DNA from: Pseudoalteromonas sp. EB27
GTDB taxonomy: Bacteria; Pseudomonadota; Gammaproteobacteria; Enterobacterales; Alteromonadaceae
Reading direction: 5' to 3'
DNA: 64,000 bases
Assembly (NCBI RefSeq): GCF_001974875.1
Contig: NZ_MTQD01000011.1
Coordinates: forward strand, 1-64,000
The position numbers were made by a program, and so were the translations under genes. The notes beneath the pieces were generated by a model. It did no database searches. It saw nothing but the letters and a program-made list of their open reading frames with translations, and was not told where the DNA came from. Numbering within the stretch: position 1 is the first letter of the stretch; every line of letters starts with the position of its first letter. Shown in pieces: positions 41,952 to 48,684 of the stretch.

Positions 41952-42836
41952 TTAGGTAAGCGTTAATAGCTGTGGAGCAACGCTGTGATAATCAACAGCC
42001 ATAGCAATACTTAACGCTGTAATATTAATAATCGAAAATGCGAACACTTTACGTGCCCAACTGCTCATATCAATATTACGACGATAACCGCGCAGCGCCA
42101 TTAACAACCACCAAAAGCTGGTAATACAAGCAACAGCCATAAAAGCAGCACCTGTGTAGCCAGTAATTGGCAATAACATCACAACTAATGCGTATACAGC
42201 GATGTAAAGTACGATATGGCGCTTTGCTTTATCAATACCTTGCGCTACTGGTAATACAGGAATACCTGCAGCTTGGTAATCTTTAAAGCGAAAAATAGCG
42301 ATAGCGTAAGAGTGCGGCATTTGCCACAAGCTAAACATAACTAGCAGTATTAATGCGCCCATATCGAACAGCCCTGTTACGGCGCAGTAACCTACTACTG
42401 GCGGTACAGCGCCAGAAAGGCTGCCTACAAAAGTGCCATATACTGAGTTACGTTTCATGTAGAGACTATAAACCCCTACATAAATTACGTAGCCAAAGGC
42501 TGCAAAAAATACCGCGGCTTGAGTGGTATAGGCGATAAGTAAACCAAAGCCAATAACGCCCAATAAAATACCGTGGCTAAGTGCAGCAAAGGCCGACATT
42601 TCGCCTGTTACTGTTACTCGCGTACGAGTACGAGCCATGGCTACATCTATGTCTCTATCAATTACATTATTGATAGCACAACCCGATGCAACCACTAGCG
42701 ACAAGCCAATTAATGTGGCAATCATTAACCATGGATCTATATCACCGCGCGAGGCAAGTAAAAACCCGCCCGCTACGCTGATTAAATTGCCCATGATAAT
42801 ACCCGGCTTAGTCACTGATAAATAACGACGAAACAT
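41952..42836 (-). CDS. cyoE: Protohaem IX farnesyltransferase (haem O synthase)
   Basis: A 294-residue polytopic inner-membrane prenyltransferase that adds farnesyl to haem b, making the haem O used by cytochrome bo3. The first aspartate-rich motif is [19 protein letters not shown], the second [13 protein letters not shown] region with the YxxKR-type loop around [12 protein letters not shown]. It has about seven to nine membrane helices. It is the last gene of the cyo operon, 9 bp after cyoD, and ends at a terminator. Confidence 0.94.
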
Positions 42837-42845
42837 CTTAAACTC

Positions 42846-43202
42846 CTAGTACATCATCATTGCGTTAGATTCATAAATGATCCAAACAGATAACCCAACC
42901 ACCATTACGATGATCAGGGCACTGAATAGGAATGAGAAAGTACTTGCACGGCCATTTTCGGTCGTAAAATTAAGGTGTAAAAAGTATTTTAAATGCACCC
43001 AAATTTGTACGATTGCCAAAGTAACAATGCTCCAAAGCGTTGTTACTTTTGAGAAGTCACCTTCCATTACCATGTAAAACGGTATAGCAGTTAAAATTAC
43101 CGATAGCACAAAGCCAATTAAGTAAGTTTTAACACTGCCATGAGATTCATCATGATGATCACTTTGCGTTTGCTTTAACGCATGCGTTTCGCTGTGGCTC
43201 AT
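42846..43202 (-). CDS. cyoD: Cytochrome bo3 ubiquinol oxidase subunit IV
   Basis: The start is the ATG at 43202, which overlaps the stop of cyoC (TAATG arrangement); a longer frame to 43268 would run back through cyoC. This gives 118 residues beginning SHSETHALKQTQ, with three membrane helices (TYLIGFVLSVILTAIPFYMV, VTLAIVQIWVHLKYFLHL, FLFSALIIVMVVGLSVWIIY). The spacing and the FLHLNF segment are typical of CyoD. It helps assembly and stability of the oxidase. Confidence 0.93.
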   Translation of the reverse strand: MSHSETHALKQTQSDHHDESHGSVKTYLIGFVLSVILTAIPFYMVMEGDFSKVTTLWSIVTLAIVQIWVHLKYFLHLNFTTENGRASTFSFLFSALIIVMVVGLSVWIIYESNAMMMY

Positions 43203-43843
43203 TACATTGCTCCCATCAAATAAACAACGGTAAATACACAAATCCAGACAATGTCTAAGAAGTGCCAAAATAGGCTTAAGCAGCTTAAACGCGTTACGGT
43301 TGCTTTACCTAGACCACGTTTAGCAACTTCAATCATCATTATGGTCATCCAAATTAGACCGGCTGTTACATGTAAACCATGTAGGCCAACTAATGAGAAA
43401 AACGATGTTAAAAAGGCACTTTGTTGTGGGCCATTACCGTGCACAATTAGATGATGAAATTCGTATACTTCCATACCAATAAACACAGCACCTAAACAAA
43501 ACGTAACAAATAACCAAGTCAGTGTTAGTGCCTTTTTTTGCCCTTGAGCGGCAATCATGGCAAAGCCAAAGGTAATACTACTAATAAGTAGTGCAGCAGT
43601 TTCTACTGCTACAAAGTCGAGTTCAAAAATATCTTTACCCGATACACCACCTGCTGTGTTCATAAATAAAACAGCGTAAGTGGCAAAAAACGAGGCAAAC
43701 AATAGGCAATCGGTCATTAGATATAACCAAAAGCCAAATATCGTATCGCCAGATGTGTCGTGATGATCATGCGCGTGGGCATGGTCATCGTGTGATACAG
43801 AGTCTAAACTTGCTGATTCTAAATTTGCTGAAAGTGTACTCAC
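43202..43843 (-). CDS. cyoC: Cytochrome bo3 ubiquinol oxidase subunit III
   Basis: A 213-residue, five-helix subunit of the haem-copper oxidase. A histidine-rich N-terminus ([18 protein letters not shown]) precedes [21 protein letters not shown], which is the CyoC signature. EAAL-type residues [12 protein letters not shown] and [10 protein letters not shown] are also present. It overlaps cyoB by 4 bp at its start and touches cyoD at its stop, so translation is coupled. Confidence 0.94.
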
Positions 43844-45828
43844 GCTTTTAGCTCCTTATTCCCACTTGAATTATATGCAGCTTCAATGCGTGCAATTTCA
43901 TCAGGTTGTATGTAGTAGTCAACATCGCTGGTGTAACAACGCTTGATAAATATGGCAATTCCGCCCACTAGCCCTACAACAGCTAACCACCAAATGTGCC
44001 AAATCATTGCAAAACAAAAAGCGGTTAGGCTGGCTGCCATAAATACACCTGCGGAGGTATTCTTAGGCATATGAATTGGGCTGTAGCTTGCTTTTGTTTG
44101 ATAAGCTTGGCCTTTTTCTTTCGCCTCGGTCCATGCATCAATGTCATCAATGTGTGGAATAGTTGCAAAGTTATAAATTTGTGGCGGAGAACTTGTAGCC
44201 CACTCAAGTGTGTGGCCGTTCCACGGATCACCTGTTGTATCGTCAAGCGCTTCGCGGTCTCTAAAGCTCACATATAGTTGAATAACTTGGCTAATAATAC
44301 CGAACATAATAATTACAGCGCCGCCTGCAGCAATGTATAACCATATGTTCCAATCTGGATTATTAGTGTGGTTTAAGCGACGTGTCATACCTAAGAAACC
44401 AAGTACGTACAGCGGCATAAATGCTACGAAGAAACCAATAATCCAACACCAAAATGATGCTTTGCCCCATTTTTCGTTAAGTTTAAAGCCCATTGCTTTA
44501 GGGAACCAAAATACAAAACCGGCAAGATAACCAAATACAGCACCACCAATAATTGTGTTATGGAAATGTGCAATTAAAAATAAGCTGTTATGCAGTACGT
44601 AATCGGCACCTGGAATAGCAAGTAATACACCAGTCATACCGCCTACGGTAAAGGTAACCATAAAACCAAGAGTCCAAAGTACGGGTACACTAATACGTAA
44701 ACGACCTCGGTAAATGGTAAATAACCAGTTAAACAACTTAACCCCAGTTGGTACGGCAATAACCATGGTCATTACCCCAAAGAAAGCGTTAACGTTAGCA
44801 CTCGACCCCATCGTAAAGAAGTGATGTAGCCAAACAATAAAACCTAAAATTGAGATTGCACCGCTGGCGTAAACCATCGATTTGTAACCAAATAAACGCT
44901 TACCTGCAAAGGTCGAAATAATTTCAGAGAAAATACCAAACGCTGGTAATACTAATATGTATACCTCGGGGTGACCCCATGCCCAAAACAGGTTGATGTA
45001 CATCATGGCGTTACCGCCCGCTGCATTGGTAAAGAAGTGAAAGTCGAGATAACGGTCAAGCGTTAGCATTGCAAGTACTGCAGTTAAGATTGGGAATGAT
45101 GCTGCAATTAAGATGTTTGCCCATGTACATGCCCATGTAAAAATAGGCATTTTCATTAGGGTCATACCTGGTGCACGCATTTTAAACACGGTCGCTAAAA
45201 AGTTTACTGCTGTTAGAAGTGTACCGAGCCCGGATATTTGCAAGGCCCAAATATAATAATCTACCCCCACCCCAGGGCTAAAGGTCAACTCCGAAAGCGG
45301 CGGATAGGCCACCCAACCTGTTTTAGCAAACTCACCAAACACTAGCGACATATTAATTAAAATGGCACCGCTGGCTGTAAACCAAAAGCTTAAGTTATTT
45401 AAAAATGGGAATGCAACATCGCGAGCACCAATTTGAAGTGGTAATACAATGTTCATTAAGCCAATCATAAATGGCATTGCCATAAATATGATCATAATTA
45501 CGCCGTGGGCAGTAAATATTTGGTCGTAGTGCTCAGGTGGTAAGTAACCTGGCGCACCACTGGTAGCAAGTGCCAACTGCGCACGCATCATTATTGCATC
45601 AGAAAAGCCACGAAACAGCATTATTAGTGCTAAAAGAATATACATTACGCCTAAGCGTTTATGATCAACAGACGTGATCCAGTCGCGCCAAAGCACGCCC
45701 CACTTTTTATACTTTGTAATAAGCCCAGCAATAATAAGCCCAGCTATCGCAATAACCGACATCGTGAACACAAGAATTGGCTCATGAAACGGAATTGCGT
45801 CGAGAGAAAGATTACCTAATAACGACAT
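43840..45828 (-). CDS. cyoB: Cytochrome bo3 ubiquinol oxidase subunit I
   Basis: A 662-residue catalytic subunit holding haem b, haem o3 and CuB. The CuB histidine-tyrosine pair is in [13 protein letters not shown], the tandem CuB histidines in [10 protein letters not shown], and the haem histidines in [11 protein letters not shown]. The N-terminal quinone-facing part [13 protein letters not shown] is present. Fifteen membrane helices are expected. It pumps protons while reducing O2 with quinol electrons. It starts 2 bp after cyoA. Confidence 0.96.
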
Positions 45829-45830
45829 TA

Positions 45831-46784
45831 TTATTCCTCGCCTTGGCTGTGAGATGAAGGCATTGAATGCTCATCCATTTCATGATGTTTTTTACTCATT
45901 TGCCCATGTTCGCCCATTGCATGATGTTTTTTATTCATGTCGCCATGTGCCTGCATGTATTTCATAACGATGGTATGAAATAAGCCGTCATCAACTTTGC
46001 CGTAATAAGCAACAGGGTTATTTTCGCTCGCTTTTGCAAGCTCAACATAATTTGCATGAGTTAGGTTATTAGCATTTGTTTTAATGTTACTAACCCACTT
46101 ATCAAAGTCTGCTTGAGTAGGGGTAGCAATGGCATTAAATTTCATACCAGTAAAACCAGCGCCACTGTAATTTGCCGAAAAACCTTTAAACGTGCCGGGC
46201 TCATTTGCAATTAAGTGAAGCTTGGTTTCCATCCCAGCCATTGAGTATATTTGACTACCCAATTGCGGAATAAAAAATGAATTCATTGTGCTCTCTGAAG
46301 TGATTTTATATTCAACAGGTACATTTGCCGGAAAAACTAGTTCGTTCACCGTAGCAATACCTTGCTCAGGATATATAAATAGCCACTTCCAGTTTAATGA
46401 AACCACTTCAACAGTAAGATGTTTACCTTTACCTTCAATTGGTTTGTATGGGTCAAGCTCTTGAGTAGACACCCAAGTAATAACACCTAAAATGATTACA
46501 ATAACAACAGGGACTGCCCAAACTGCGGCTTCAATTTTATTTGAATGAGCCCATTTTGGAGCATAAATTTCATGAGTTTGCGTGTCTCTATATTTCCATG
46601 CGAAATACAAAGTCATCACAATAACGGGAACGACTACAAGCAACATAAGCACGGTTGCGATGATGATTAAATTTTTCTCATCAATGCCTATCTGCCCTTT
46701 TGGATCGAGTATCCCGCCTTTACAGCCTGACAACGCCAGCACTGTACTAGCTAAAGCAATATTACAAAGGTTACGAATTAACAA
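45831..46784 (-). CDS. cyoA: Cytochrome bo3 ubiquinol oxidase subunit II
   Basis: A 317-residue lipoprotein subunit (lipobox [10 protein letters not shown]21) with two membrane helices and a cupredoxin domain lacking the CuA ligands, as expected for a quinol oxidase ([36 protein letters not shown]). The start is TTG with AGGA about 7 bp upstream; no ATG occurs in the first 45 codons, so this start is needed to keep the lipoprotein signal. The last 35 residues are unusually rich in His and Met ([20 protein letters not shown]) and may bind copper. E. coli CyoA has a similar but shorter tail. It is preceded by a 318-nt leader after an upstream reading frame. Confidence 0.94.
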
Positions 46785-46858
46785 GGGAGTATCCTACAAA
46801 CCTAGAGTTTCAATTTGCTGCTTAAAATAAAAACCAAAGCAACGATTTTTCAATAAAA

Positions 46859-46991
46859 ACCCAAGTTAACTAGAATTAAATTATAAAAATAAGGGGGCTA
46901 TTCAAAACCTAAAGCTCATGCCATTAATGACCTAGCAACAAACCCAGCTTTCTAAACGCATTTATATAACGTAATAAAAGTTAACTTGGGT
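46859..46991 (-). repeat. Long-range inverted repeat in the cyo leader, terminator-like
   Basis: ACCCAAGTTAACT (46859-46871) and AGTTAACTTGGGT (46979-46991) are perfect 13-bp complements separated by 107 bp. On the minus (cyo) strand the second arm is followed by TTTTTATT. Folding would give a stem with a T-run between the upstream reading frame and cyoA, the arrangement of an attenuator. Each arm also contains the self-complementary AGTTAACT, so alternative pairings are possible. Confidence 0.5.
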
Positions 46992-47049
46992 GAGTGGTGG
47001 TTGGCTGAAATGTGTTTAAAAAACACAGAGCTACTTTGTTTTAGCTAAC

Positions 47050-47082
47050 TTTAATTATTTACAGCAAGAACAAATAATTAAA
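47050..47082 (-). repeat. AT-rich hairpin directly after the upstream reading frame of cyo
   Basis: TTTAATTATTT pairs with AAATAATTAAA around an 11-base loop, 20 bp past the stop codon of the 141-codon frame. It is a good candidate for a transcript element that a paused ribosome could affect. Confidence 0.5.
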
Positions 47083-47102
47083 ACCAGCAACAAGGTGTAA
47101 CC

Positions 47103-47528
47103 TTACAGACAACCTGTAAAGCTAGGTGGAGCACGACAACCATGTGAAGAGATCACAGGCTGAAGAATTTTAGCCTCGCTTAAAGCAAAGGCTGCTTTAC
47201 GGAGGATAATTCCAGCACGACGCGCTGGAAAAATATGGAACAATAACCAACAAAGGCCAATAAGTAACTGACTTGAAATGATTGGATGAGCTAAAAATCC
47301 AGCAATAGTAAGTAACAGGGGCTCTACAATAAACCCATCACTCAATAATGCTTCAAGCTTGAAGGCATCTTCTAATGCACCGCTTAGCAACATTACAGTA
47401 TTAAACACTAATAAAGTTATAGCTACACATACGCCCTTACCCGCTTTATTCAAGCGCTCACACGTAACTGGTTCGCTTGGGGCGAAATCAGTATTAGTAT
47501 GACGTAAAGAAAGTATGTTCAAAGACAT
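47103..47528 (-). CDS. Putative regulatory leader peptide of cyo: membrane protein ending in a C-R-A-P-P motif
   Basis: A 141-residue protein of no family I can name, encoded just upstream of cyoABCDE on the same strand. It has an N-terminal soluble part, a first hydrophobic segment (about 33-50), a second long hydrophobic segment (70-100), a basic linker, and the ending SSHGCRAPPSFTGCL, with R132-A-P-P135 and cysteines at 131 and 140. RAPP near the C-terminus is the stalling motif of the arrest peptides ApdA and ApdP. With P135 in the ribosome, about 35 residues fill the tunnel and the second hydrophobic segment would just be emerging. The start ATG has AGG 3-6 bp upstream. It could also be an ordinary small membrane protein. 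Confidence refers to it being translated. Confidence 0.65.
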   Translation of the reverse strand: MSLNILSLRHTNTDFAPSEPVTCERLNKAGKGVCVAITLLVFNTVMLLSGALEDAFKLEALLSDGFIVEPLLLTIAGFLAHPIISSQLLIGLCWLLFHIFPARRAGIILRKAAFALSEAKILQPVISSHGCRAPPSFTGCL

Positions 47529-47682: not shown

Positions 47683-47894
47683 TCAAACTTTCAAAACTTA
47701 CTGAAAGTTCGAACGTGAGTATAACAAAGAGAATTTTCTGTTCAACTAAAAATCAATTAATTTGAGTTAAGCTTTCGAAGCTATTTTGTTAATAAAAAAT
47801 AACACGATAAAAAACAATAAATTAGATCAAATAAAAAACGATTTAAATAGAAATATTTAATAGAATTATAGCTTTTTAGGAGGGAGTAATAATT

Positions 47895-48440
47895 GTGTGG
47901 CACAAATAAAAACAGCCCAAATTCAGTCACCACCGAACTTGAGCCGCCTTTCACACTGACAACATCTTCACACACAATATAAAGATTTTTGGTTTACACT
48001 GCGTGGCATTGTAAGGAATAAAAACAACTCAAATACAGTCACCACCGGATTTGAGCTGCCTTTCACACTGACAACATCTTCACACACAATATAAAGATTT
48101 TTTGTTTACACTGCGTGGCATTGTAAGGAAATAAAAACAACTCAAATGCAGTCACCACCGAATTTGAGTTGCCTTTCACACTGACAACATCTTCACACAC
48201 AATATAAAGATTTTTGGTTTACACTGCATGGCAATTGTAGGGAATAAAAACAACTCAAACTCAGTCACCACCGAACTTGAGTTGCCTTTCACACTGACAA
48301 CATCTTCACACACAATATAAAGATTCTTGGTTTACACTGCGTGGCATTGTAGGGAATAAAAACAACTCAAACTCAGTCACCACCGAACTTGAGTTGCCTT
48401 TCACACTGACAACATCTTCACACACAATATAAAGATTCTT
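47895..48440. repeat. Five tandem repeats of about 112-113 bp between nqrM and cyo
   Basis: The marker CAGTCACCACC recurs at 47924, 48036, 48149, 48262 and 48374, giving periods of 112-113 bp. A 42-base block from GCCTTTCACACTGACAACAT to AATATAAAGATT is identical in all five copies. Each unit contains (a) on the minus strand a hairpin CAACTCAA/TTGAGTTG followed by TTTTTATT, like a terminator (perfect in copies 3-5, imperfect in 1-2), and (b) on the plus strand a promoter-like CTGACA-N16-TATAAA inside the invariant block. No reading frame is conserved. The unit could be a repeated small RNA, a repeated promoter/terminator, or a binding array. It is not CRISPR, because whole units repeat with no unique spacers. 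Flanks 47683-47894 and 48441-48644 hold nothing else that I recognise. Confidence 0.85.
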
Positions 48441-48644
48441 TTAAGCGAGGCTAACTTATGCCTCAAGCTTATGACGAGAGCCTTGCTCTTTGTCTATGGT
48501 TAAACTTTAGAGTGTTAGCTCCAATTTGACAAACGAGAAAAATAAACCTAATAAGTGAAAAAAACTAAACTATATACTTTCGTCTAATACATTAAGATTG
48601 GATTGCTTTGGAAGCCAAGGAGTTGATGAGTTTTACAGGCACAA

Positions 48645-48668
48645 AAAAAGCGCTATAAAGCGCTTTTT
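48645..48668 (-). terminator. Terminator after nqrM
   Basis: AAAAAGCGC pairs with GCGCTTTTT around TATAAA, 17 bp past the nqrM stop codon. It marks the end of the nqr region. Confidence 0.9.
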
Positions 48669-48684
48669 AATATTTAAGACGGGC

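Follow-up and report, generated by a model that had tools for sequence, protein, structure and literature searches.

The window, i.e. the whole stretch of 64,000 nucleotides that was analysed, carries on its minus strand the cyoABCDE operon of the cytochrome bo3 oxidase and, upstream of it, an open reading frame of 141 codons (uORF), referred to here as the cyo leader. The features of the locus are listed below in the direction of the minus strand.

47718–47745, minus strand: sigma-70-like site 5′ of the uORF, TTGAAC-16-TATACT with a preceding TG (consensus match only)
47103–47528, minus strand: cyo leader uORF, 141 codons, ATG start, TAA stop (frame, homologues and purifying selection)
47376–47432, minus strand: predicted first transmembrane segment (TM1), residues about 33–51 (hydropathy; AF2 helix 22–48, low confidence)
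47322–47372, minus strand: acidic loop, residues 53–69, predicted periplasmic; acidic positions 54, 64 and 69 conserved
47229–47315, minus strand: second hydrophobic stretch, residues about 72–100, predicted TM2 (hydropathy; AF2 helices 68–80 and 82–99)
47145–47228, minus strand: basic tail, residues 101–128 (charge profile), expected to be largely inside the exit tunnel at the proposed stall
47124–47144, minus strand: HGCRAPP codons, residues 129–135, the proposed arrest motif
47124–47135, minus strand: RAPP codons; P134 is the predicted P-site codon and P135 the A-site codon (register from the literature)
46785–47102, minus strand: 318-nt intergenic region between uORF and cyoA, without an intrinsic terminator on the minus strand (scan)
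46782–46795, minus strand: cyoA initiation region with Shine-Dalgarno sequence (SD) AGGA (46792–46795), possible short pairing to UCC, and TTG start
45831–46784, minus strand: cyoA (NCBIfam TIGR01433, above cut-off)
43840–45828, minus strand: cyoB (NCBIfam TIGR02843, above cut-off)
43202–43843, minus strand: cyoC (NCBIfam TIGR02842, above cut-off)
42846–43268, minus strand: cyoD (NCBIfam TIGR02847, above cut-off)
41952–42836, minus strand: cyoE, heme o synthase (NCBIfam match)

The preliminary description of this DNA had placed a 141-codon frame on the cyo strand, 318 nt before cyoA, and reading of the frame bore this out. The uORF ends in HGCRAPPSFTGCL followed by the stop codon, and 318 nt separate it from the TTG start of cyoA at 46784. 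It is a genuine coding frame under purifying selection: dN/dS lies between 0.07 and 0.47 in 21 of 22 compared pairs of leader homologues, the remaining pair being saturated. A degenerate DNA pattern that takes in most ways of encoding the ending gave two matches in the 4.5 Mb genome, of which one, that of the uORF, encodes an HGCRAPP ending. The window protein has no match in Pfam up to E 10 and none in NCBIfam. Among 33 leader members only weak, scattered matches to these libraries were seen, the best being PspB (E 0.0019 in Pfam, 0.0061 in NCBIfam). No relative was found in the PDB up to E 1, and Rfam gave only sub-threshold matches. The scan for sigma-70-like sites returned 9 sites, compared to 5.4 (sd 2.2) in shuffled sequences. 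Further 5′ of the leader on the cyo strand lies a tandem array (47905–48437; 112-bp unit, 4.7 copies, 94% matches) with a plus-strand promoter-like match in each copy. At 48543–48675 on the plus strand, a match to Rfam STnc130 falls below threshold (31.2 bits against a gathering score of 55, E 0.12) and overlaps STnc420.

Distribution of the leader was studied at several levels. A search of 60 relatives gave matches at E ≤0.01 in 20 genomes, 18 with full-length homologues and 2 with weak matches within long frames. Full-length homologues are thus found in 18 of 36 same-genus genomes, the source genome counted. HGCRAPP is invariant in the alignment of these 18, and cyoA is the next gene on the same strand in every case. 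Two leaderless genomes of the genus from a separate sample (G279, G337) also lack cyo. At 34 of 34 further loci from Pseudoalteromonas, Psychromonas and Colwellia, fetched by patterns from the middle of the protein (residues 87–94 and 106–114) and not from its C-terminus, the frame ends in HGCRAPP and cyoA lies directly downstream. The association with cyo put forward in the preliminary description, and the conserved R-A-P-P end, are seen in the 18 genus homologues as well as at these 34 loci. When a profile of the 18 homologues was run against 394 genomes of the order, 27 matches were obtained in 26 genomes; 26 of the matches have the RAPP end and cyoA downstream, and the other is weak, covers 31 residues and has no cyo genes in its neighbourhood. 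The sequences support a strict linkage of the leader to cyo.

Of the 394 order-wide genomes, 119 have CyoA, and upstream DNA was covered for 116 of these cyo loci. Homologues of the C-terminal end, for which the preliminary description had proposed a search upstream of cyo operons, were found at 33 of the 116, in four families: 8/8 loci of f1, 7/7 of f11, 9/9 of g25 in f25 and 9/12 of f6. Seven of the 33 were not detected by the profile. No leader was seen at the other 80 loci, which include 33 of f18, 14 of f21 and 16 of g51 in f25. Outside the order, a frame ending in [GS][CS]RAPP was found at 0 of 93 CyoA loci of a phylum-wide sample comprising some of the matches. At seven of these 93 loci a frame has R[AG]PP, RAGP or RAPG as its end; at three of the seven the end is RAPP, in frames 34–46 codons long and 844–993 nt away.

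To follow descent, a CyoA tree was made from N-terminal parts (116 rows, 99 columns); many of its forks are weak because of the 99 columns. The 33 carriers and three non-carriers of f6 form one clade of 36 rows (support 99/98), and the leader label changes 2 times on the tree versus 28.8 in shuffles. A single gain and one loss are enough, since no frame comparable to the leader was found upstream of cyo in the three non-carriers of the clade (L154, L156, L166). As these three relatives of carriers retain cyo without it, the leader is dispensable. The carriers of g25 in f25 lie inside the carrier clade and g51 of the same family lies elsewhere on the tree; therefore, the leader goes with the operon and not with the host.

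Strict linkage to cyo and the presence of two membrane segments would also be seen if the product of the frame served the bo3 oxidase in trans, either as a small membrane-bound subunit or in its assembly, with the RAPP end as a functional tail. Such a role appears improbable. Conservation is highest at the arrest-like end and not in the membrane part; only R, A, P and P are invariant among 33 members (a motif-collected set). RAPP motifs are reported, in part of PMC12992588, to be avoided in proteomes and enriched where small secretory or membrane proteins encoded by uORFs end. The loss of the leader at three cyo loci argues against it as well.

Sixty-seven non-redundant proteins were gathered by requiring [GS][CS]RAPP, so that the invariance of RAPP in this set is partly by construction. 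Identity within the family falls to about 20%, and the RAPP end, the predicted transmembrane hairpin, three acidic loop positions and a hydrophobic segment with its centre usually 43–50 residues before the proposed stall site are still kept. Next to the motif, His129 is found in 61, Gly130 in 62 and Cys131 in 62 of the 67, the remainder at 130 and 131 being Ser. Across 96 loci (a redundant set) the motif is written with many codons: Arg as CGT, CGC, CGG, CGA and AGG, Ser as TCG, TCC, AGC and AGT, and Ala and both Pro in all four of their codons. This synonymous variation indicates that the peptide and not the RNA is conserved; judged from the codons and dN/dS, the selected unit is the peptide.

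The preliminary description took R-A-P-P for an arrest ending of the ApdA/ApdP class, and homology supports this assignment, the RAPP end being conserved among the homologues. It is highly probable, from sequence conservation, that the leader is a regulatory arrest peptide of cyo. The sections of PMC10987492 and PMC10951233 on RAPP peptides place the third motif residue in the P-site, and therefore P134, not P135, is expected there. It counts against the arrest reading that E. coli and B. subtilis proteins with a RAPP motif mostly did not stall, as described in part of PMC10987492. RAPP uORFs upstream of diverse genes and the chemistry of RAPP are on record (parts of PMC12992588 and PMC10951233). 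RAPP arrest peptides are a known kind, and none is tied to a terminal oxidase in the literature searched. HGCRAPP had no match there, CRAPP had unrelated titles among the matches listed, and a query for arrest peptides with cyoA listed only reviews. No uORF or arrest peptide joined to bo3 oxidase was among the matches listed. The main text of PMC12992588 contains no oxidase, quinol, cyo, respirat, heme, oxygen or cytochrome; cyo may be in its figure lists or supplements.

Comparison with known systems shows both shared and separate traits. With ApdA, ApdP and the RAPP-like (RQH) peptides the leader shares a C-terminal RAPP, an N-terminal membrane segment (two or three segments are predicted from hydropathy), the uORF position and a conserved C-terminus. 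A spacer of more than 30 residues, as in RAPP-like peptides, is also present, TM1 ending about 80 and the second segment about 35 residues before P134. Those peptides precede secA, secDF or yidC, and the original definition of RAPP-like peptides includes a sec or yidC gene downstream; the leader is followed by cyoA, and its predicted hairpin carries an acidic loop. Later work, in part of PMC12992588, extends RAPP uORFs to other genes. SecM (FxxxxWIxxxxGIRAGP) has in common with the leader only G-x-R-A-x-P, which resembles its GIRAGP end (arrest sequence per part of PMC12992588). It differs in its FxxxxWI, absent from the leader, its secA target and its secretion signal. VemP of Vibrio resembles the leader as a force-sensed arrest and is linked in part of PMC11470409 to ion-driven translocation and the choice between sodium and protons, but it has another arrest sequence, is exported and acts on secDF2. 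MifM, the YidC monitor of Bacillus, is alike in the short, narrow distance between membrane segment and stall site and unlike in its arrest sequence, its single N-terminal segment and its yidC2 target.

CruR (DUF2946) of Bordetella is a C-terminal RAPP uORF with a long gap to the regulated gene and a Rho read-out; it has a signal peptide in place of the two membrane segments of the leader, and acts on another target. Since CruR senses copper (part of PMC9426467), and Cyo is a heme-copper oxidase, the leader could be a copper or redox sensor of the CruR or CutF kind; the His and Cys beside RAPP (61/67 and 62/67) would suit such a role. The likelihood of this is very small. CXXC, located about 45 residues before RAPP in CruR, is absent from the leader; Cys is seen at −39 and −46 in some members and is missing in many. 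The window protein does not match PF11162 up to E 10, and DUF2946 is absent from the 7 weak families matched by 33 members. CutF-like copper uORFs are likewise small cis-acting leaders of copper enzyme genes, but the leader has no CXXXCXC, other Cys-rich metal motif, poly-Pro or Pro-rich C-terminus. The residue next to RAPP would sit by the peptidyl transferase centre, unexposed. The pair C131/C140, offered in the preliminary description as a copper or redox site, was rejected on grounds of conservation. Three of the 18 genus homologues lack C140, and it could not occur in 29 of 67 family members, whose chains go on for four residues at most beyond RAPP; Ser replaces C131 in 5 of 67, and there is no further conserved Cys. 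The genome also has a separate CutF-like frame, unlike the leader, of 102 codons (L281:1483–1791, plus strand, contig C3). It is His/Cys-rich with HxHQHCHC and a Pro-rich end, matches DUF2946 at 19.5 bits, under the cut-off, and precedes a 420-codon frame resembling an outer-membrane efflux protein.

Asp or Glu occupies positions 54, 64 and 69 in 94, 93 and 94% of the 67 proteins, and Gly50 (65/67), Leu92 (65/67), Pro82 (60/67) and a basic residue at 104 (87%) are kept. By hydropathy, TM1 lies about 80–100 residues before the motif; in the loop, from −90 to −56, the median count is 5 for acidic and 1 for basic residues, and basic charge is maximal 30–32 residues before P134, just after the hydrophobic segment. 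At the threshold used, 13 of the 67 proteins have three hydrophobic segments, and in the window protein the scan divides residues 66–108 into two. An AF2 model from 33 sequences has five helices but is poor (pLDDT 63.7, pTM 0.27), and topology was therefore based on hydropathy and charge. The prediction is a transmembrane hairpin with both termini inside (N-in/C-in).

Spacing between hydrophobic segment and motif is narrow. With the search restricted to 30–72 residues before P134, the centre of the best 19-residue window lies at a median of 44 residues (quartiles 43 and 50, range 39–60, n=67). The window protein, centred at 59, departs from this value because its hydrophobic stretch (66–100) is long. 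Force studies place the maximum at about 45 residues (part of PMC7886326), which the family median fits. According to part of a review (PMC6028853), acidic segments in transit release SecM arrest via the membrane potential; basic and neutral segments also release it to some degree. The proposal of an insertion sensor is built on the spacing and this release of SecM, and the proton motive force is its boldest form. Sensing of membrane insertion by the leader is probable from these sequence features. Homology supports the insertion-sensor layout of the preliminary description, here with a predicted transmembrane hairpin whose hydrophobic segment would already have left the tunnel when the ribosome stalls; P134, and not P135, is predicted in the P-site.

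In the proposed mechanism, the ribosome would stall during entry of the hairpin into the membrane, its P-site occupied by P134 and its A-site by P135-tRNA. The second segment as it inserts, and the acidic loop as it crosses, would pull on the chain and release the stall. Were insertion slow, through poor membrane energisation or short insertase capacity, the stall would last and cyo expression would rise. The sign, stall leading to more cyo, is set by analogy with SecM, MifM, VemP, CruR (part of PMC9426467) and the Alteromonas secDF2 leader (part of PMC10987492). We thus favour, as the probable reading, a new lineage of RAPP-class arrest peptide that would act in cis on cyo and sense insertion of its own hairpin.

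The same arrest peptide might instead monitor Sec/YidC capacity in the manner of MifM, and cyo would be the target as a large client of YidC/Sec. A short, narrow distance from segment to stall is typical of YidC monitors (MifM median 54, part of PMC10987492), and the leader, at about 35 residues from the segment end (44 minus 9), has such a spacing. Unless the sign were negative, there would be little sense in raising an insertion client during insertion shortage. The genes downstream include neither sec nor yidC, and a capacity monitor would not need the conserved acidic positions. We regard this signal as doubtful. Likewise tentative is the form of insertion sensing in which the leader would be a nascent-chain voltmeter: the acidic loop would have to cross the membrane, the membrane potential would free the stall, and the stall would raise a proton-pumping oxidase. 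Low proton motive force would then give a lasting stall and more cytochrome bo3, and restored force would free the ribosome and end induction.

If stall and insertion release are true, a respiratory terminal oxidase would be under direct control of translation arrest, a case beyond protein export and metal handling. Through its conserved acidic loop, a nascent protein would offer the cell a possible way to read membrane energisation and feed it back to a proton pump. The family offers a comparative set in which only arrest motif, loop and spacing are kept.

A read-out via transcription (shielding from Rho) or mRNA stability is more likely than unmasking of the cyoA ribosome binding site; a Rho-type read-out as in CruR is suggested by elimination. 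Unmasking of the SD, the read-out of SecM and of the Alteromonas secDF2 leader, would agree with the start codons of cyoA: TTG or GTG in 31 of 33 genes with the uORF (TTG 29, GTG 2, ATG 2, the ATG as script-placed) versus 6 of 83 without it (ATG 77, GTG 4, TTG 2). It would also agree with a short SD-pairing hairpin at many uORF-bearing cyoA genes. This preference for TTG/GTG may, on the other hand, reflect shared ancestry. The leader-to-cyoA gap varies from 133 to 626 nt across carriers, and when folding was computed with and without a stalled ribosome, accessibility changed by more than 0.1 upwards in 6 and downwards in 8 of 66 cases. SD unmasking is thus an unlikely read-out. An RNA switch in the gap was rejected, as consensus folding of the intergenic sequences, done for six clades, brought out no shared structure and the accessibility test was negative.

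A mechanical scan found a terminator-like site in 3 of 71 distinct intergenic sequences. In the window the intergenic region has no intrinsic terminator on the minus strand, the one site lying inside the uORF. C-over-G bubbles are modest, with a largest excess per 70 nt of 0.01–0.20 (scan without control). A long stem is present in the intergenic region of clade A. In the three f6 non-carriers (L154, L156, L166), the cyoA initiation region is similar to that of carriers and has a GTG start.
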